Shown here: piece after piece, positions 27,892-53,741 of the stretch | Position numbering within the stretch: position 1 is the stretch's first letter | Layout: each line of letters begins with the position of its first letter | Origin: Pseudomonas sp. MYb327 | GTDB taxonomy: Bacteria > Pseudomonadota > Gammaproteobacteria > Pseudomonadales > Pseudomonadaceae | DNA length: 64,000 nt | Reading direction: 5' to 3' | Assembly: GCF_040438925.1 (NCBI RefSeq) | Contig: NZ_CP159258.1 | Location: forward strand, 3,114,001 to 3,178,000 | Translations under genes and position numbers: made by a program | The notes under the pieces: generated by a model | Databases searched by the model: none | What the model was told of the DNA's origin: nothing | Seen by the model: only the letters and a program-made list of their open reading frames with translations

Positions 27892-28131
27892 GCGCCCAAA
27901 TGGCGCATCGGGTTTGGCGACTCGATGACAAAGTAGAGGAACCTCCCAGCTATCTCGGAGTGTTTCGGAACGCACTTGGTTACCTGTTTTTGGTGGCTGT
28001 GCGTGGGAGACCCTCGGGTCTGCCGGTTTACCTTGTCCCGGTTCGCCAACCTGCGTACAGCTGCCACCCCTTGTTTGGCGACACTGAGTGGTAGTTCACC
28101 TCAATACAAGGAATCACTCATTAAAGAATTT
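27892..28131 (+). promoter_or_regulatory. Long structured 5' leader with alternative pairing arms
   Basis: TTGGCGA occurs at 27914-27920 and again at 28075-28081. The exact complement TCGCCAA lies between, at 28043-28049. Either arm can pair with the central one, giving two mutually exclusive stems. A small AGACC/GGTCT hairpin lies near 28007-28021. The span has no open frame that I can support. It resembles leaders that I recall ahead of small DUF3077/DUF6124-type genes in pseudomonads, but I could not check this. Confidence 0.5.
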
Positions 28132-33421: not shown

Positions 33422-33721
33422 ATGAGCCAAACCGATCGGGACTACAGTGAAAAGCGCGATTTCATCCGCATGCGAGTCGACGCCGATGTGTCGCTGATTC
33501 ATCAAGGCGATGAGGTCGCAGCCGTCTGCATCGACCTTTCCAGCAGCGGCATGCAGCTTCAGGCGCCGCGTTCGTTCCAGATTGGTGACCGACTCAGCGT
33601 GCGTATCGAATCCGAGCACGTCGCGCTAAAGGGGCTCGAAGCCGACACCGAAGTGGTGTGGGTGAACGAACAAACCGGTGGAAGTCAGAAACTCGGCCTT
33701 ACAATCTTGAAGATGAATTAA
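33422..33721 (+). CDS. PilZ-domain protein
   Basis: 99 residues, a stand-alone c-di-GMP receptor. The RxxxR-type motif lies at the start, EKRDFIRMRV (about 11-20). The second motif is CIDLSSSGMQLQ (D/N-x-S-x-x-G, about 37-48). Both c-di-GMP contacts are therefore present. Ribosome-binding site AAGGATC is eight bases from the ATG. It is divergent from the rssBC pair and has a bidirectional terminator after it. Confidence 0.9.
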   Translation: MSQTDRDYSEKRDFIRMRVDADVSLIHQGDEVAAVCIDLSSSGMQLQAPRSFQIGDRLSVRIESEHVALKGLEADTEVVWVNEQTGGSQKLGLTILKMN

Positions 33722-42915: not shown

Positions 42916-43497
42916 ATGTCGACATTAGATGAAGAAGATCGCCGCGAATACTACCGTATCGAGGACACGATCGCACTGGAAATTCGGCCCCTGTCCGCTC
43001 CCGAAGCCGCAGGCCAGGAAGTGTTGCAGGATGCTTCCCCACTCTTCAATGTGCTCAGCGAATTGCACCTGAGCGAATTCGAGTCGCAACACCTGCTGCG
43101 CCAGATCAGCGAGCGCGACCGGAATCTCGCGGCGTTCCTGAAATCCCAGAATAAACGTATCGACTTGTTGAGCCAGGTGATCGCCATCACCGTGCTCGGG
43201 CAGATCGGCGAGCCACAACCGGTGATCATTTCTGAAGGCGGCATCGAATTTCAGCACCCAACGCCGTTTGCCGCCGGGGCTCACCTGTCGGTCAAACTGG
43301 TGTTGATGCCGCAAGCCCTGGGCCTGTTGCTGCGGGCTCGGGTGATCCATTGCGACCGCAAGGGTGATGGTTACGACGTCGGCACCGAGTTCGAACACCC
43401 GACCGACGCCCAGCGGCAACTGCTGGCCCGCTACATCTTGCAGAAGCAGGCCCAGGAACGACGCCTGGCCCGCGACCAACTCGAATCAGGCATTTAA
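42916..43497 (+). CDS. PilZ-domain-like protein with altered second motif
   Basis: 193 residues. It starts MSTLDEEDRREYYRIEDTIALEIRPL, where RREYYR gives the RxxxR-type arm. A helical stretch (about 45-95) is inserted, then a beta-domain where the D-x-S-x-x-G motif should be reads VIISEGGIEF. The acidic residue is missing. The rest (LSVKLVLMPQALGLLLRARVIHC and YDVGTEFEH) is PilZ-like. c-di-GMP binding is therefore uncertain. It is followed 14 bp later by the phosphodiesterase gene and probably co-transcribed. Confidence 0.75.
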   Translation: MSTLDEEDRREYYRIEDTIALEIRPLSAPEAAGQEVLQDASPLFNVLSELHLSEFESQHLLRQISERDRNLAAFLKSQNKRIDLLSQVIAITVLGQIGEPQPVIISEGGIEFQHPTPFAAGAHLSVKLVLMPQALGLLLRARVIHCDRKGDGYDVGTEFEHPTDAQRQLLARYILQKQAQERRLARDQLESGI

Positions 43498-47138: not shown

Positions 47139-48578
47139 TCAACGATCCGCCACCTTCAACGACTGGCTCCACCCTCCCCCCAGCGCCTTGTACAACGTCA
47201 CCTGATTAATCTCCCGCGCCAACTCCAGCTGCGCCCACTTCTGCTGTGCATCAAACAGCGACCGCTGCGCATCCATGGTGGAAAAATAGCTGTCCAGCCC
47301 CGACTCGAAGCGCAGGCGGGACTGCCGGTACGCTTCCTGATAATCCCCTACCAGTTTTTTCTGGAACTCGACCTGCGTGAGCATTTCCTGCCGGGCATTC
47401 AGGGCATCGGCCGCCTCGCGAAAAGCATTCTGCACCGTGGCTTCATAGGCCGCTGCCTGCCCGTTGAAGCGGGCATGACTGGCATCCACCTGCGCCCGTC
47501 GCCTGCCACCGTCGATCAAGGGTAACGAGCCCGCCAGCGCCAGCGACCAGAACTCCGCCGGCCCTGTGAGCAACTCAGAGAATTCCCCGGTCAGACTGCC
47601 CAGCGCCGACGTCAGGGAAATCGTCGGGAAGTAGGCCGTGCGTGCCGCGCCGATATCCGCATTGGCGGCTCGCAACTGCGCCTCGGCGGACATGATGTCC
47701 GGCCGACGCTCAACCAACGCCGAAGGCAAACCCGCCGGTACATCGAGCGTCGCCAGCCGCTCACCCAACGCGCCGGTCGGCAGCAAACCCGCCGGCACCG
47801 GCTGCCCCACCAGGACCCGCAGCGCGTTCATGTTCTGCGCCACTTGCATGCGATAGGTGTTGACCTGCACCGCCGCCGTGTTGGTTTGCGCATCCGCCTG
47901 GTGGACGTCGATTCGCGCACTGGAACCGAGGTTATAACTCTTGCGCAACAGCTGCCCGTAGCGGTCCTGGGATTGGTAGGTGTTCTGCGCCAGGTCGAGC
48001 AAATGCTGGTTGGCCTTGAGACTCAACCACGTACTGGCGACTTCGCCGATCAGCGCCAGCCGCGCCGTTTGATAGTCCGCCTCGGACGCTTCGAACCGCG
48101 CCCCGGCGGCATTGCGCTGACTGCGAATCCGACCGAACAGATCCAGTTCGTAGGAGGTAAAGCCAGCCGTTGCCTGATAGGTGTTGGCGATGCTACCCGC
48201 CGTATCGCCGCCTCCGGGTGTGCGCACCAACGGCGGCAACTTGCTGCGGCCGGCGTAAGTGTCGATGCCGATCGTAGGAAAAAGCCCCGAACGCGCACTG
48301 TCGTAGCCGGCTCGCGCCTCTTCGACACTCGCCGCGAACTGACGCAGGCTGCGGTTGTTGACCAGGGCCATGTCGATCAGCTGGCGCAGTCGTTCATCGA
48401 CCACAAAACCGCGCCAATCCTTATCGAATGCCTGCTTGCCGCTGCAACACTCGCCAGCGGTATTGGCTGGCCATTGCTGATCAATCGGTGCGTCTGGTTT
48501 CTCGTAGGTAGGTTCCAGCGAACAACCGCCGAGCAAAAACAATGTCATGAAACAGGAAGTGGGCAAGCAACGGTTCAT
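47139..48578 (-). CDS. Outer-membrane efflux lipoprotein, NodT/OprM type
   Basis: 479 residues from MNRCLPTSCF; lipobox LLGGC with Cys19. Two outer-membrane-efflux repeats of the TolC superfamily. Seen: LRQFAASVEEARAGYDSARSGLFPTI, RNAAGARFEASEADYQTARLALIGEVASTWL, VERRPDIMSAEAQLRAANADIGAARTAYFPTISLTSALG, and the C-terminal helix pair with YRQSRLRFESGLDSYFSTMDAQRSLF. It trimerises into a channel across the outer membrane and periplasm. Last gene of the four-gene operon, nine bases after the glycosyltransferase stop. In this context it should conduct a polysaccharide or another product of the synthase instead of a drug. Confidence 0.92.
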   Translation of the reverse strand: MNRCLPTSCFMTLFLLGGCSLEPTYEKPDAPIDQQWPANTAGECCSGKQAFDKDWRGFVVDERLRQLIDMALVNNRSLRQFAASVEEARAGYDSARSGLFPTIGIDTYAGRSKLPPLVRTPGGGDTAGSIANTYQATAGFTSYELDLFGRIRSQRNAAGARFEASEADYQTARLALIGEVASTWLSLKANQHLLDLAQNTYQSQDRYGQLLRKSYNLGSSARIDVHQADAQTNTAAVQVNTYRMQVAQNMNALRVLVGQPVPAGLLPTGALGERLATLDVPAGLPSALVERRPDIMSAEAQLRAANADIGAARTAYFPTISLTSALGSLTGEFSELLTGPAEFWSLALAGSLPLIDGGRRRAQVDASHARFNGQAAAYEATVQNAFREAADALNARQEMLTQVEFQKKLVGDYQEAYRQSRLRFESGLDSYFSTMDAQRSLFDAQQKWAQLELAREINQVTLYKALGGGWSQSLKVADR

Positions 48579-48587
48579 GGCGCGCAC

Positions 48588-50738
48588 CTAAAAACGTTGG
48601 CCGAGCAAAGCTCGCAAGGGAGAAAGAAGCACAGACCACAGACCCGACCGGCCGATGCTGATGTGCGGCACAGCCTGTTTACGTGAACGAGCGGTGACTG
48701 GCCGCCAGCGGGTTGGCGAAACATAGACCGGTGCCTTGACCGGTTTGGCGGCACGCGGCGCCAAACGTTTTTCGCCGAGCAACGAACGCTGCAGCAAGGT
48801 GCCGAACGCCTGTGCCGGCTCGGCCTTGCTGACCACGTTGATCGTGGCGTCACTGAACAGCCGCGCAATCAACTGCCGCCGCCGCCCTTCATCGAGATCG
48901 GCAAACCTCAAGCCCAATTGATCCTCACCGTGATTGCGCATGACTTCAACGTCGAGCCAACCCACCTTGTCGACCCACATCTGACCGCACAGCCCTGGCT
49001 TGATCGAGGACGCGAAGGCGCAGTTCAGCGAGGCGCCGCTGAGGGAAATATCCACCAGGCGCCCCGGCAGGACTTTGCCACCGAAGCGAAACCCGGTGGG
49101 TTTATCGAACGGAAAGCGCTCTTCGCCGTGTAACCGTGGGCGGTCGACGCAGGCGACCAGGGTTGCCAGGTTGTACACCAGCGCTACCACCGTCCAGCAG
49201 AGGTTGAACAGCATGTTGCCGTCGAACGAAGCCGCCGTGCTGATCGCGATGTAAGCGCCAAACTGCGACAGCAGCGTCAAGGCCAGGAAGAACCCGAACA
49301 GCTTCCAATGAACCATCGTCTTCGTTCGGTCGAGGCCCTTGGCGGTGACTTTGAACGGTCGGCCGAACGGGCGAATCATGGCGCTGGCGATGGTCGCCGT
49401 GACTGCCAGCGAGGCAACAATCTGCGTGACCTCGGTAAAAATCGGCAGCGTTCGCCGATCCGTCACCCACGTCCCGTAACCCCAGAATGCAATCAACGCC
49501 GGCATGCCGAACGCCAGGAAGTCCACCGGGTTGGCGTAGAAACCGGCAATGCCGAAGTACCAGTACAGCACCGGAGACACCAGCATCATCAAAATGAACG
49601 GCTTGGAAAACCAGTGCATCAGCCCATGGACATAGTGCAGCCGGTCATTGAGCGTGTAGCCGCTGCCGCGCAACGGCCCATCCTTGAGCAGCGCCACCTG
49701 GATTGTGCCCAGGCACCAGCGCCCGCGCTGATTGATGTATTCGGTCAAACCTTCGGCGGACAAACCGATGGACAGACGCTCGTTCAACCAGCGCGTGACG
49801 TAGCCTTTTTGCAGCAAACGGTAGGTCGTGTAGATGTCTTCGCAGACCGAGCCTGTAGGAAAACCGCCGACTTCAGTAATCAAATCGCGCCGCACCACGA
49901 AGGAAGTGCCGACACAAAACGCTGCATCCCAACCATCCTTCGCCGGTTGAAACACGTCGAAGAACACCCGCTGCTCATCCACCCAACAGGCCGACGTGCC
50001 GAGGTTGTGCTGAATCGGATCGGGGTTGTAGTAGAACTGCGGCGTTTGCACCAGGCCGACCTTGGGATCGTCGAACAGCCCCAGGGTGCGCAAGAGGATC
50101 GGTTGCTGCGGTGCAAAGTCGGCATCGAGCACCAGAATGTACGGCGCGTTGCTCAGGGCCGCCGACTGTTGCAGACCGTTATTGAGGTTGCCGGCCTTGG
50201 CGTGGGAATTGTCCGGACGCCGCGCATATTGCACGCCGACCTCGGCGCAGTAGTCGCGCAACCAGTCGCGCCGGGTATCGTCGAGCACCCAAATGGTGAA
50301 GTTCGGGTAGTCGATGGCCTGGGCGGCAATAATGGTTTTCTCGAGGATTTCGAGGCCTTCGTTGTAGGTCGCGATGAAGATGTCCACCGCCGGTACTGCT
50401 TTACCTTGCGCCCGTAAACGTCGTTCGCCGGCATCGGCCTCTTTGCGGTGATCCGTGCGACAAAGCATCACGACAATGGAAAACAGCGTGTAACCAATCG
50501 CCAACATCTCGAAGAACAAGAAGGTGTAGGCCCAGACCGTGGCAAAGCCGGAATGACCGTCGGGCAAAGTGTCGCGAATCCGCCAGGCCGCATAGTTAAC
50601 CAGCAACAACGCGGTGACCGCACCGAAACCGACCCGTGCGGCCCATTGATCGCGGTGAGTCAGGCAGGTGAACAGAATCACCGCTGCCAGCGTCCAGAAA
50701 TTGATTTGCAGCAGTTGCAGCGAGTCCAGTGCCAGCAT
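48588..50738 (-). CDS. BcsA-like family 2 glycosyltransferase with C-terminal PilZ-like domain
   Basis: 716 residues from MLALDSLQLLQ. N-terminal TM helices (about 10-28, 36-52, 66-93), GT-A domain about 115-345 with FIATYNEG, DD at 153-154, DADF at 205-208, CED at 299-301 and the processive-synthase QRGRW at 337-341. More TM helices follow, with the BcsA-type gating loop FKVTAKG at 462-468. The PilZ-like domain (about 530-632) has DISLSGASLN, but its first motif (RPRLHGEER) lacks a clean RxxxR. It polymerises a beta-glycan-like chain and threads it across the inner membrane. It starts one base after the stop of the glycosidase-like gene. No bcsB, bcsC or bcsZ is near. Confidence 0.9.
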   Translation of the reverse strand: MLALDSLQLLQINFWTLAAVILFTCLTHRDQWAARVGFGAVTALLLVNYAAWRIRDTLPDGHSGFATVWAYTFLFFEMLAIGYTLFSIVVMLCRTDHRKEADAGERRLRAQGKAVPAVDIFIATYNEGLEILEKTIIAAQAIDYPNFTIWVLDDTRRDWLRDYCAEVGVQYARRPDNSHAKAGNLNNGLQQSAALSNAPYILVLDADFAPQQPILLRTLGLFDDPKVGLVQTPQFYYNPDPIQHNLGTSACWVDEQRVFFDVFQPAKDGWDAAFCVGTSFVVRRDLITEVGGFPTGSVCEDIYTTYRLLQKGYVTRWLNERLSIGLSAEGLTEYINQRGRWCLGTIQVALLKDGPLRGSGYTLNDRLHYVHGLMHWFSKPFILMMLVSPVLYWYFGIAGFYANPVDFLAFGMPALIAFWGYGTWVTDRRTLPIFTEVTQIVASLAVTATIASAMIRPFGRPFKVTAKGLDRTKTMVHWKLFGFFLALTLLSQFGAYIAISTAASFDGNMLFNLCWTVVALVYNLATLVACVDRPRLHGEERFPFDKPTGFRFGGKVLPGRLVDISLSGASLNCAFASSIKPGLCGQMWVDKVGWLDVEVMRNHGEDQLGLRFADLDEGRRRQLIARLFSDATINVVSKAEPAQAFGTLLQRSLLGEKRLAPRAAKPVKAPVYVSPTRWRPVTARSRKQAVPHISIGRSGLWSVLLSPLRALLGQRF

Positions 50739-50739
50739 G

Positions 50740-51984
50740 TCAGTCAGCCTCTTGCGAACCGGTAAAGGGATTGACGCCGGTGGCCGCAATCGCTGCCCAC
50801 GCGGTGGCGCCCAAGTGAGGCAAGTGGTAATAGAAAAAATCGTTGGTGACCGAGTCCGGGCCTATGGCCAGCCCGGTACTGATACGCGGTGCCGGTGTGG
50901 CGAATAGCCAACCGTTACCGGCCTGCTGGGCCAACAGCACGCTCCACAGTGGCTGGGCCTTGTCGCTCAAGCCACTCAAGCGCGCCACGGCAGCGGCTTG
51001 GGCGGTGCCTTCGGTCCACAAGCCATCGGGGTCGCGGTTGAAGCCGTAACCTTCGCCGGCGCGGTGAGCGTGATCGATGAAGGCGAAAACCCGCCGCCAG
51101 TCCTTGGGTGGATCATGCAAGGCGATCAGGGGCCAGATCTGCGCATCGAGCCCCGAGCGTACGCGGTCTGAGGTCTGGCCATCGGCGCCCGTGCCGATCA
51201 GGAAGCGCCCTTCTCCCTCGTCCCATTGGCTCGAAACAAACTGCCGGGCAATTCGGGCCTGTGTTGCCGAGTCCTGATTCGGCGCCACCGCATCGAGTGC
51301 TGACCACGCTGCGGCGAGGTCGACATTGTGCTCGGTGGATTTCCAGTTCTGCTGAATCTGCTTGGCAAAGTACCCGTAGTAGCCCCCACTGAAACCGGCG
51401 GGCGATTGGCCGTCGTAGGTTTTTTTCTGCGACCAGTGCAGGACTTTTCGCGCGGCCTCCAGGTAAGACGCCTCACCGCTTTGGCGATACGCCTCCAGCA
51501 GCGCCAATGCCGCCCATGCCTGATTGCCGGTGGCGCTGCTGACTTGATAGGCGTCCTGATTCCAGGCGTTGCGCTCGACACTCCAGTAACCCGGCAATTT
51601 CATCGATGGCGCGCCAACGGCCCCGGCGGCATAGGCATTGCGCAGGCGTCCGTCCTGATACTCCGGATCGTGCAGCGTGGCGAAAGCCAATGCATCGGCA
51701 ATCCGCCGCGCCGACTCAGCCTTACCGCACGCAAACAAGGCAATGCTGGCCAGTGCGTTGTCATAAGTGAACGCCACGCCGCGCAAGGCCAGGATCGGTG
51801 CCGGATGACCATCCAGCGGCGGATAACTGGCCACCAGCACCGGCCCCGCTGGCAGCGATGTCACGGCTTGATCCAGCGCGGCACAAGTCATCGCCGCCAG
51901 TTGCGGCCGCGCTTGAGCTGCCATGGCAGGCGCTCCATTGGCGATCAGCATCGCGCCCAATACCCCACGAAAAAACTTGTTCAT
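50740..51984 (-). CDS. Exported six-hairpin glycosidase-like protein
   Basis: 414 residues from MNKFFRGVLG with a signal peptide (cleavage near APAMAAQA). The rest is helical with Trp/Tyr/Gly-rich turns: RGVAFTYDNALASIALFACG, GNQAWAALALLEAYRQSG, STEHNVDLAAAWSALD, RSGLDAQIWPLIALHDP and GYGFNRDPDGLWTEGTAQAAAVARL. The periodic pattern suggests an (alpha/alpha)6 barrel as in glycoside hydrolases and lyases. I cannot name a family or confirm catalytic acids. It overlaps the fusion-protein gene by four bases (ATGA) and precedes the synthase by one base. By position it plays the role that BcsZ or AlgL play: trimming, editing or clearing periplasmic polymer. Confidence 0.8.
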   Translation of the reverse strand: MNKFFRGVLGAMLIANGAPAMAAQARPQLAAMTCAALDQAVTSLPAGPVLVASYPPLDGHPAPILALRGVAFTYDNALASIALFACGKAESARRIADALAFATLHDPEYQDGRLRNAYAAGAVGAPSMKLPGYWSVERNAWNQDAYQVSSATGNQAWAALALLEAYRQSGEASYLEAARKVLHWSQKKTYDGQSPAGFSGGYYGYFAKQIQQNWKSTEHNVDLAAAWSALDAVAPNQDSATQARIARQFVSSQWDEGEGRFLIGTGADGQTSDRVRSGLDAQIWPLIALHDPPKDWRRVFAFIDHAHRAGEGYGFNRDPDGLWTEGTAQAAAVARLSGLSDKAQPLWSVLLAQQAGNGWLFATPAPRISTGLAIGPDSVTNDFFYYHLPHLGATAWAAIAATGVNPFTGSQEAD

Positions 51985-53186
51985 GGCCGTGTCACCTCGG
52001 CGCTGGCCCACAATCCCGGGTTGCAGGTCATGGCTCGCTGGGCATCCGTCAGATCAGCGGCAAACGTGCCGACCACGTACACCGAGTTCTGCTCGGCATA
52101 CGGGAATGGCACGCTATAAGTGTTGGCGCGAATGTCCGAGGTGCTGGAGAGCAATTGCACCACGCTAGCCCTGAGCGGCTGATCCAGGCCACGGATTTTC
52201 ACCGTCAGCACGCTGTCGCGGTCGATCTTGCTGGCCATGCGCTCGGGGAATACCGCAATCACGTAGCTCTGCCCGCAATCGGTGGCGCGCAGCAAAGTCG
52301 AGCCGGCCTGCACCAGCGTGCCCTGAGGCGCAAGCAACTCCTGGACGGTTCCGGGGGAATAAGCCACGACGTCGTAGCCGGCCATCAACTTGACCCGGTT
52401 CTGCTCGGTTTCAATCAGTTGGTTGAGATTGTCGAGCTCCTGTTGATAGGTCGCCCGGTTGCGCGCCTGATTTTCCAGGCTGAGTTTCAGCGTGGTCATT
52501 TGCGCGCTGAGATCGAACATGCGCAGTTGATCGGGATCGAGGTAGACCTGTTTGTTCGCCGCACTGACGTCACCATCTGTGATCCGCAACTGCGAACGCA
52601 CCGATTCGGCCGCGCCTTGCAACGAGGCCAATTGGGCTTTTGACGAAGCCACCACCGCGCCACTCACCGCCCCCTGTACAAACAACTCGAGATTGCGCTC
52701 GACGGTTTCCTGGGCATCGATCAATCGTGCACTGGCGGCACTGTTCTCGGCTTTCAGGGCTTTTTGGGTGAAGAGCTGGCGGGTGTGAAACGCGGCCTGG
52801 TATTGCTGACTGGTTTTCTCCAGCTCCTGGTAATAACGCTGATCGTGCTCGGCCTGGCTGGCCGAAGACGACAGCTGTTGCTCCAGGGTCAGGCGTCGGG
52901 TTTGCAGAGTCAGTAACGTTTCCTGGTTCGCCCGGGGGTTTTCCACCACGGCGATTTTCTGGCCCTGGGTGAAAGTTACGCCGGGCTTGACCTCCAGCGA
53001 ACTCACCACACCATCAATCGGTGTGGTCAGCAGAATCACAGGGGCATTCAAAATCGCCCGGGTGGCAGAAGCGGACACCAGCGGCATGAGTAAGGTCGAC
53101 AGTAACAACCAGATAATAAAACCGAGGACACCCAAACCCACCAGCCGGGGTAATAGTGATAATAACTTCGAGCGTTCTTCTGCCAT
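51981..53186 (-). CDS. HlyD-family membrane-fusion protein
   Basis: 401 residues, first gene of the operon, ribosome-binding site GGGAGAG. One N-terminal TM (about 12-34, LVGLGVLGFIIWLLLSTLLM). Lipoyl half-motif PIDGVVSSLEVKPGVTFTQGQKIAVV. A long coiled-coil hairpin about 80-265. The second lipoyl half is VVAYSPGTVQELLAPQGTLVQAGSTLL. Beta-barrel at the end. It would bridge the inner-membrane synthase to the NodT-type channel. Alg44 joins PilZ and HlyD-like parts in one chain, and BgsB of rhizobial mixed-linkage glucan synthesis is a separate HlyD-like partner; this gene is closer in layout to the latter. Confidence 0.9.
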   Translation of the reverse strand: MAEERSKLLSLLPRLVGLGVLGFIIWLLLSTLLMPLVSASATRAILNAPVILLTTPIDGVVSSLEVKPGVTFTQGQKIAVVENPRANQETLLTLQTRRLTLEQQLSSSASQAEHDQRYYQELEKTSQQYQAAFHTRQLFTQKALKAENSAASARLIDAQETVERNLELFVQGAVSGAVVASSKAQLASLQGAAESVRSQLRITDGDVSAANKQVYLDPDQLRMFDLSAQMTTLKLSLENQARNRATYQQELDNLNQLIETEQNRVKLMAGYDVVAYSPGTVQELLAPQGTLVQAGSTLLRATDCGQSYVIAVFPERMASKIDRDSVLTVKIRGLDQPLRASVVQLLSSTSDIRANTYSVPFPYAEQNSVYVVGTFAADLTDAQRAMTCNPGLWASAEVTRP

Positions 53187-53741
53187 GTTTCACTCTCCCT
53201 AAAGACCAGCCGCAAAACAGTCAGGCAATAGCGGGCCGTGACCGCGAGACACTTTTGGCAGGGTGAGAAAAACGAAACTGAAACGCTGCACGACAAACAA
53301 GCCGACGCAGTTTTATTAGGATTTATTGTGAGATGAGCAGGAATGAGATTCCTGTCTTGTTGGAGAGTTGCTATACAGCGCAGTAACGAGACTGGCTAAA
53401 CCCGTGGCAGAGCGGGCGTCGTCATTGGCGACACTAGATTCCACGGATTGGAGTGTCAAGCCTCTGCATTGAACAATTAAATGACGTCAAATATGTACCG
53501 GTCTTTACATTGGATCCATTTCGAGAATGCACACTCAACTCGCCATCAACTACTTATTTTTTATGGAAGTTTTTATTTTTAATAATTAAATGAACTTTGT
53601 ATCGGATTTTAGATAATTCTGAATTTCATTCTGCAAAGATTAAAAAAATATAAGTAGGTCTTCCCGAGCGACATTGCATTCATGATCCACAAACAAAAAC
53701 GCCCCGACCAAAGTCGGGGCGTTTTCATGTGCGGCTAAGGC
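53187..53741. promoter_or_regulatory. AT-rich intergenic region upstream of the polysaccharide-type operon
   Basis: 555 bp with no supported gene. The part at about 53540-53660 is strikingly A+T-rich for this genome, with T- and A-tracts (TTTTTATTTTTAATAATTAA). This is the kind of DNA that MvaT/MvaU xenogeneic silencers coat. The minus-strand operon promoter should lie between 53190 and 53500, but I cannot pin a convincing -35/-10 or -24/-12. Confidence 0.5.
53696..53727 (-). terminator. Terminator of gapB
   Basis: CGCCCCGAC and GTCGGGGCG pair around CAAA; on the minus strand TTTTTGTTT follows. It lies 15 bases past the gapB stop. Confidence 0.9.

Follow-up and report, generated by a model that had tools for sequence, protein, structure and literature searches.

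A conserved four-gene operon in Pseudomonas sp. MYb327, proposed to couple a cellulose-synthase-like glycosyltransferase to efflux-type export parts

Whether a processively made glucan is exported through HlyD/TolC-type parts is an open question. In cyanobacteria a tripartite HlyD/TolC route for glucan has already been proposed, the XcsAB-TolC system of Thermosynechococcus vulcanus, and the available part of the review presenting it (PMC12430437) states that the model lacks validation and that its parts are not in a single operon. For the rhizobial BgsBA system the available main text of the R. etli bgsBA paper (PMC9495663) names the HlyD-like part alone for the channel, and the term "outer membrane" appears nowhere in it. 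In this study a stretch of 64,000 nucleotides from the 6.15 Mb genome of Pseudomonas sp. MYb327 (contig NZ_CP159258.1, positions 3,114,001 to 3,178,000; the whole stretch is hereafter called the window) was analysed, and on its reverse strand an operon was found that brings all the proposed parts together in a single gene set (Table 1). Its four genes encode an HlyD-family adaptor, an exported protein with a predicted six-hairpin fold, a processive family 2 glycosyltransferase (GT2) and a NodT-family outer-membrane channel lipoprotein, and with a probability of roughly three in four they form one machine for glucan synthesis and export with an efflux-type channel.

The four-gene make-up and the junctions given in the initial annotation were found to be correct from refined starts, Pfam and NCBIfam matches and GT2 motifs; the HlyD and six-hairpin genes share a 4-base ATGA overlap, the six-hairpin and GT2 genes are separated by 1 base and the GT2 and NodT genes by 9 bases. 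HlyD matches HlyD_D23 (38.4 bits, cut-off 30) and HlyD_3 (38.6 bits, cut-off 22.2), NodT matches OEP (178.9 bits, cut-off 22) and TIGR01845 (376.8 bits, cut-off 210.05), and Pfam GT2 families score over cut-off for the synthase. The operon contains no pump gene, GT2 being the only inner-membrane protein besides the adaptor, and is flanked by the genes gap and apbE.

A scan of species genomes with the GT2 alignment gave at least 573 confirmed relatives, and the best-scoring 80 loci were used, with GT2 similarity as the sole criterion. When these were compared by tblastn the order six-hairpin gene, GT2, NodT was kept in 80/80 loci, and all four genes, with HlyD first, were present in 78, the remaining two (L060 and L074) being truncated contigs. 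The linkage search suggested in the initial annotation thus showed the genes to be conserved together, as one unit and not a chance neighbourhood. Median gaps along the operon are 21.5, 1 and 12 bases (n = 78, 80 and 62, starts picked by script). The hosts belong to Pseudomonas, Dyella, Frateuria, Rhodanobacter, Cupriavidus, Ralstonia, Burkholderia, Pandoraea and Variovorax, and among the 80 relatives listed all those with a GT2 identity above 70% are from Pseudomonas or a gamma-proteobacterium. In its own genus GT2 was found at E <= 1e-100 in 8 of 119 genomes, the MYb327 genome counted. A set of 398 Pseudomonadota genomes contained 75 with some GT2 match at E <= 1e-40 and only 5 scoring at least 774 bits; all 5 adjoin a six-hairpin gene and HlyD, and 3 of them NodT as well. 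In Pseudomonas sp. TH10 (L044:3819-5965) the GT2 is split over two frames, the first piece having 486 amino acids, which would point to either a damaged gene or a mistake in the sequencing; this locus was excluded from the GT2 motif counts and the GT2-NodT gap count.

GT2 and NodT form a single open frame in 17 of the 80 loci, comprising 15/15 Variovorax and two Pseudomonas loci (Pseudomonas sp. 14P_8.1_Bac3, L026, and P. putida 700447, L042), and the fusion is apparently found in three lineages. All 17 junctions have a hydrophobic stretch ending in a lipobox-like Cys; the lipobox pattern is present in 63/63 unfused NodTs of the 80 loci, and L073 and L094 have the Cys site. An ATG or GTG is kept 22 codons ahead of the junction Cys in 9 Variovorax loci, and in L094 the residue at this position is Ala. 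A far-reaching and tentative proposal, doubtful as a whole, is that the GT2 represents an unassigned class of bacterial beta-glucan synthase, of neither the cellulose, the curdlan nor the mixed-linkage type, that a captured drug-pump channel of the outer membrane serves as its private exit and that the Variovorax polyprotein might be cut at the internal lipoprotein signal, its halves going to the inner and the outer membrane.

Trees of GT2, NodT, HlyD and the six-hairpin protein, each made from 21 of the 80 loci together with the window, all group Variovorax with Rhodanobacteraceae (support 99/97 for GT2, 97/94 for NodT, 95/92 for HlyD and 93/93 for the six-hairpin protein), after which Pseudomonas joins (100/99, 98/97, 99/98 and 99/99, in the same order) and then Burkholderiaceae. 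The four genes have a common backbone which includes this species-discordant group, and since Variovorax is a beta-proteobacterium in the usual taxonomy the operon appears to have been transferred as a block. The NodT of the MYb327 genome closest to the synthase NodT, L158 (= L185:6503-7972), reads from frame sizes and N-termini as belonging to an operon of adaptor, resistance-nodulation-division (RND) pump and NodT, and because it is placed inside the clade of the synthase NodTs an OprM-type pump channel is the likely origin of the latter, through one recruitment or several.

The AlphaFold2 model of HlyD (predicted local distance difference test, pLDDT, 82.4; predicted template modelling score, pTM, 0.45) has EmrA (4tko) as its best fold match, and an adaptor of the EmrA type, with a long hairpin, is predicted. 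Where this hairpin is predicted to have its tip, the residues follow the spacing R-x3-L-x6-S, which in efflux adaptors is that of the RLS docking motif; among 79 four-gene HlyDs the triad is RLS in 45, RMS in 20, TLS in 10, HMS in 3 and VLS in 1, with Ser at the third site in all 79. Searched for along the whole of HlyD, the pattern R-x3-L-x6-[S/T] has no information value (0.41 in shuffles); only its constant position at the predicted tip carries weight.

The six-hairpin protein is predicted to have an (alpha/alpha)6 fold (pLDDT 91.8), and a fold search with the model gave hydrolases as top rows, a likeness that alone does not show function. No Pfam family matched it over cut-off, GH127 (PF07944) reaching 20.2 bits against 24.9; PF07944 was found at E <= 0.01 in 5 of 34 family members (best 2.6e-4) and as a precomputed mark on 3 of 120 listed database relatives, and a distant relationship to GH127 may exist. 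BcsZ is a GH8 (alpha/alpha)6 periplasmic hydrolase, and GH8 entries were not among the 50 fold-match rows listed. Stand-alone members of the family (L231, L232, L233, L234 and L235), with no clade synthase within the fetched stretch, were also seen.

In the proposed machine the cellulose-synthase-like GT2 would polymerise a beta-glucan, presumably from uridine diphosphate glucose, and push the chain through the inner membrane. The long-hairpin HlyD adaptor would take the chain and hand it over to NodT, which as a dedicated channel would pass the polymer across the outer membrane, replacing the usual cellulose exporter, and the six-hairpin protein would trim the chain in the periplasm.

The PilZ-like tail reported for GT2 holds in so far as PF07238 matches over cut-off with DxSxxG conserved, but RxxxR begins with His in place of the canonical Arg in 33/33 Pseudomonas-group rows. 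This Arg is kept in at least 27 of the 47 other four-gene rows, and at the same site two Variovorax rows, P0063 and P0112, have Glu and Asp. In BcsA, according to the available part of PMC5567048, the first Arg of RxxxR takes part in a salt bridge that inhibits the enzyme, which becomes constitutively active when this Arg is replaced by Ala. Because of the His in the Pseudomonas rows, control of GT2 by cyclic di-GMP (c-di-GMP) is only putative. Two more PilZ matches over cut-off lie on the forward strand of the window (33449-33718 and 43228-43443); the open frames that contain them have 106 and 207 amino acids.

In the GT2 tree 22 four-gene rows fall on one side of a branch (98/96) and three alpha-proteobacterial rows join them (100/100); 7 BcsA rows are far off (100/100), and the S. 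meliloti row with its kin forms a clade of its own, separate from the four-gene and three-gene rows. The phylogeny proposed in the initial annotation could be drawn for BcsA and S. meliloti BgsA-type rows, and GT2 is outside both clades. Gene context changes stepwise from BcsA rows, where 0/7 have HlyD, a six-hairpin gene or NodT in 3-5 kb flanks, to bgsBA rows, where HlyD is alone of the partner genes in 17/17 with no NodT and no six-hairpin gene (the label of these rows comes from their score and a neighbouring HlyD and not from a tested product), then to alpha-proteobacterial three-gene rows with HlyD and the six-hairpin gene (L096, L135, L136, L239, L240 and L242) and finally to four-gene rows with all. 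In L096:5387-10318, on an Agrobacterium pAt-type plasmid, the order is HlyD-GT2-six-hairpin (GT2 45%, six-hairpin protein 40%) with no NodT nearby. A search of Rhizobiaceae, where 10 synthase stretches were examined among 30 matches listed, showed HlyD linkage in 10/10 and a six-hairpin gene as well in 3, and none of the 10 was labelled curdlan. The available part of Oehme 2019 (PMC6821405) describes a function-unknown clade 4 of beta-glucan synthases with alpha-, beta- and gamma-proteobacterial members, and clade-specific residues after the QxPH/Q motif; for CrdS and BgsA it uses the codes Q9X2V0 and Q92WG2, assigned there in either order. Like the GT2 clade it stands apart from the cellulose and BgsA clades, and clade 4 also from CrdS; no operon is given in that description, and matched by description and not by tip names, the GT2 clade is probably this clade 4.

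One alternative is simply that the enzyme is a synthase of cellulose (1,4-beta-glucan), with cellulose as its polymer, and that only its export genes are out of the ordinary. The GT2 signature of DxD, ED (VCED), QxxRW and FxVTxK is complete, as in BcsA and CelA, the QRGRW and FKVTAKG of the initial annotation both being present, and TIGR03030 CelA is the best NCBIfam model, with several public names reading "cellulose synthase". The score, however, is 381.6-381.8 bits against an equivalog cut-off of 699.1, and BcsB (PF03170) gave no match in the MYb327 genome although the E. coli positive control scored, so that the earlier remark that no bcsB is nearby extends to the genome as a whole. Together with the tree position this rules out a bona fide BcsA, and as the QxPH/Q motif also differs (QTPQF in 82/83 and QTPQY in 1/83 rows of the four-gene/alpha clade, QTPH in 7/7 BcsA rows), cellulose as the product is conceivable but unlikely. 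A mixed-linkage (1,3;1,4) glucan like that of BgsBA, with a channel and a trimming enzyme added, would agree with the HlyD-GT2 pair, with bgsBA-type sequences being the nearest non-BcsA relatives and with the QTPQ common to both. Against it stand the separate clade of the S. meliloti GT2 (37.8% identical, adjoining HlyD and assumed to be BgsA from its organism and this neighbour), the QTPQH of 17/17 bgsBA rows, the DDG or DDQ in the same 17 rows where 80/80 four-gene rows have DDT, and the PilZ match of GT2, BgsA being without PilZ in the available part of PMC5567048; this alternative is regarded as improbable.

That HlyD and NodT are a small-molecule efflux system merely co-located with the synthase could be argued from the apparent RND operon of the closest own-genome NodT and from the drug-pump adaptors among the fold relatives of HlyD, but with no pump gene in the operon, the order conserved in 78/80 loci, the GT2-NodT fusions and the common tree backbone it is highly improbable. 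Gene order, fusions and gene trees rule out chance neighbours or a plain drug pump; NodT and HlyD, which the initial annotation considered might prove an unlinked drug pump, are in conserved linkage and the channel is fused to GT2 in 17/80. The six-hairpin protein could instead be epimerase-like or a catalytically dead guide of the chain, for which fold likeness to hydrolases leaves room; nine acids invariant in both alignments, Glu218 and Asp382 included, and the hydrolases as top fold rows make this rather unlikely. Several observations weigh against a single machine with a dedicated channel. NodT was not found in the fetched flanks of the six alpha-proteobacterial three-gene loci, and a dedicated channel is therefore not universal; L158 is sister to Burkholderiaceae NodTs, so the synthase-NodT clade is not exclusive. 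The tree program flagged the alpha-proteobacterial rows as long branches, and their joining has 91/73 in the GT2 tree, and each of the two Pseudomonas fusions is known from one assembly. Since an ATG or GTG is kept in the 9 Variovorax loci, it is possible that those fusions also yield NodT from a separate internal start. The HlyD model is moderately confident at its pTM and has low template modelling scores to EmrA (0.36/0.43), and in 5 of 10 genomes carrying the six-hairpin family no GT2-clade synthase is nearby.

As to the surroundings, a terminator-like hairpin with a T run follows the gap gene in the 555-base intergenic region upstream of the operon, which would make a promoter of its own within this region likely. 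Pattern scans gave 2 promoter sites against 2.2 in shuffles, nothing above chance, and 10 terminator sites against 7.8. The genes gap and sthA flank it in 27 of the 33 loci of the Pseudomonas group and were not found in L037, L038, L039, L041, L042 and L043; on this ground it is ruled out that the host line acquired the operon recently as an island. Elsewhere in the window a ROSE_3 thermoregulator element (2496-2568, 68.1 bits) and a C4 antisense RNA (27986-28071, Rfam RF01695, 76.1 bits), presumably of a phage-borne family, were detected.

Table 1. Features of the four-gene operon and its upstream region, in window positions
Feature	Position	Strand	Remarks
HlyD-family adaptor gene, first of operon	51981..53186	-	401 amino acids, ATG; refined start
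HlyD N-terminal membrane helix, residues 12-37	53076..53153	-	predicted; hydropathy segment 15-33
HlyD long helical hairpin, residues 89-269	52380..52922	-	predicted helices 89-170, 176-211, 218-269
HlyD R164-x3-L168-x6-S175, predicted hairpin tip	52662..52697	-	spacing of RLS docking motif
Exported six-hairpin (alpha/alpha)6 protein gene	50740..51984	-	414 amino acids; predicted glycosidase/epimerase fold
Six-hairpin signal peptide, residues 1-22	51919..51984	-	by eye
Six-hairpin Glu218	51331..51333	-	invariant in 34/34 and 7/7 rows (two alignments)
Six-hairpin Asp382, loop before last helix (391-402)	50839..50841	-	invariant in 34/34 and 7/7 rows
Processive GT2 polysaccharide synthase gene with C-terminal PilZ match	48588..50738	-	716 amino acids
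GT2 DxD (in LDADF)	50118..50126	-	invariant, 15-row alignment A1
GT2 QRGRW (QxxRW)	49716..49730	-	motif alignment
GT2 gating loop FKVTAKG (FxVTxK)	49335..49355	-	motif alignment
PilZ domain PF07238 of GT2	48855..49124	-	36.1 bits (cut-off 22.5); DxSxxG kept
NodT-family outer-membrane channel lipoprotein gene	47139..48578	-	479 amino acids
NodT lipobox LGGC	48522..48533	-	sequence
Terminator-like hairpin and T run after the gap gene	53700..53721	-	by eye; not in pattern-scan list

The gene set was not described in the open-access literature searched, as judged by titles and abstract openings, and in this respect the initial annotation, which knew of no system with exactly this set, stands; its architecture has precedents in XcsAB-TolC and BgsBA. 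The same precedents qualify the idea of a polysaccharide machine on tripartite efflux parts, which is otherwise favoured by the conserved unit, the fusions, the predicted long-hairpin adaptor and the missing pump gene. The fusions in relatives tie the synthase to the channel, the operon would probably show how a synthase clade of unknown function is built, and the export question would become testable by four gene removals in environmental Pseudomonas or Variovorax.

With BcsA-BcsB-BcsZ-BcsC the operon shares the catalytic and gating motifs of GT2, a PilZ match and, in the predicted fold of the six-hairpin protein, a possible parallel to BcsZ, but it has efflux-type export parts and no BcsB in the genome. 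EmrAB-TolC and RND pumps resemble it in the long-hairpin adaptor and the NodT channel, whereas a pump protein is lacking here and the inner-membrane enzyme is a synthase. In BgsB-BgsA an HlyD-like gene is likewise located upstream of a cellulose-synthase-like GT2, as the available text of PMC9495663 has it, with the six-hairpin gene lying between the two in the Pseudomonas operon; the rhizobial set is HlyD and GT2 only, with neither NodT nor six-hairpin gene in the flanks, its GT2 is of a different clade, and the domain with which BgsA binds c-di-GMP is not a PilZ domain in the part of PMC5567048 available, unlike the Pseudomonas GT2 with its PilZ match. The likeness to XcsA-XcsB-TolC, as far as the architecture described in the accessible part of the review goes, lies in a PilZ-bearing synthase, an HlyD-like adaptor, a TolC-type channel and an associated glucanase, and the difference in that these parts are not in a single operon, whereas the four-gene set is, and in that some relatives have GT2 and channel fused. 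By this comparison the operon is best read as a dedicated-channel version of the XcsAB-TolC model and of the rhizobial BgsBA.

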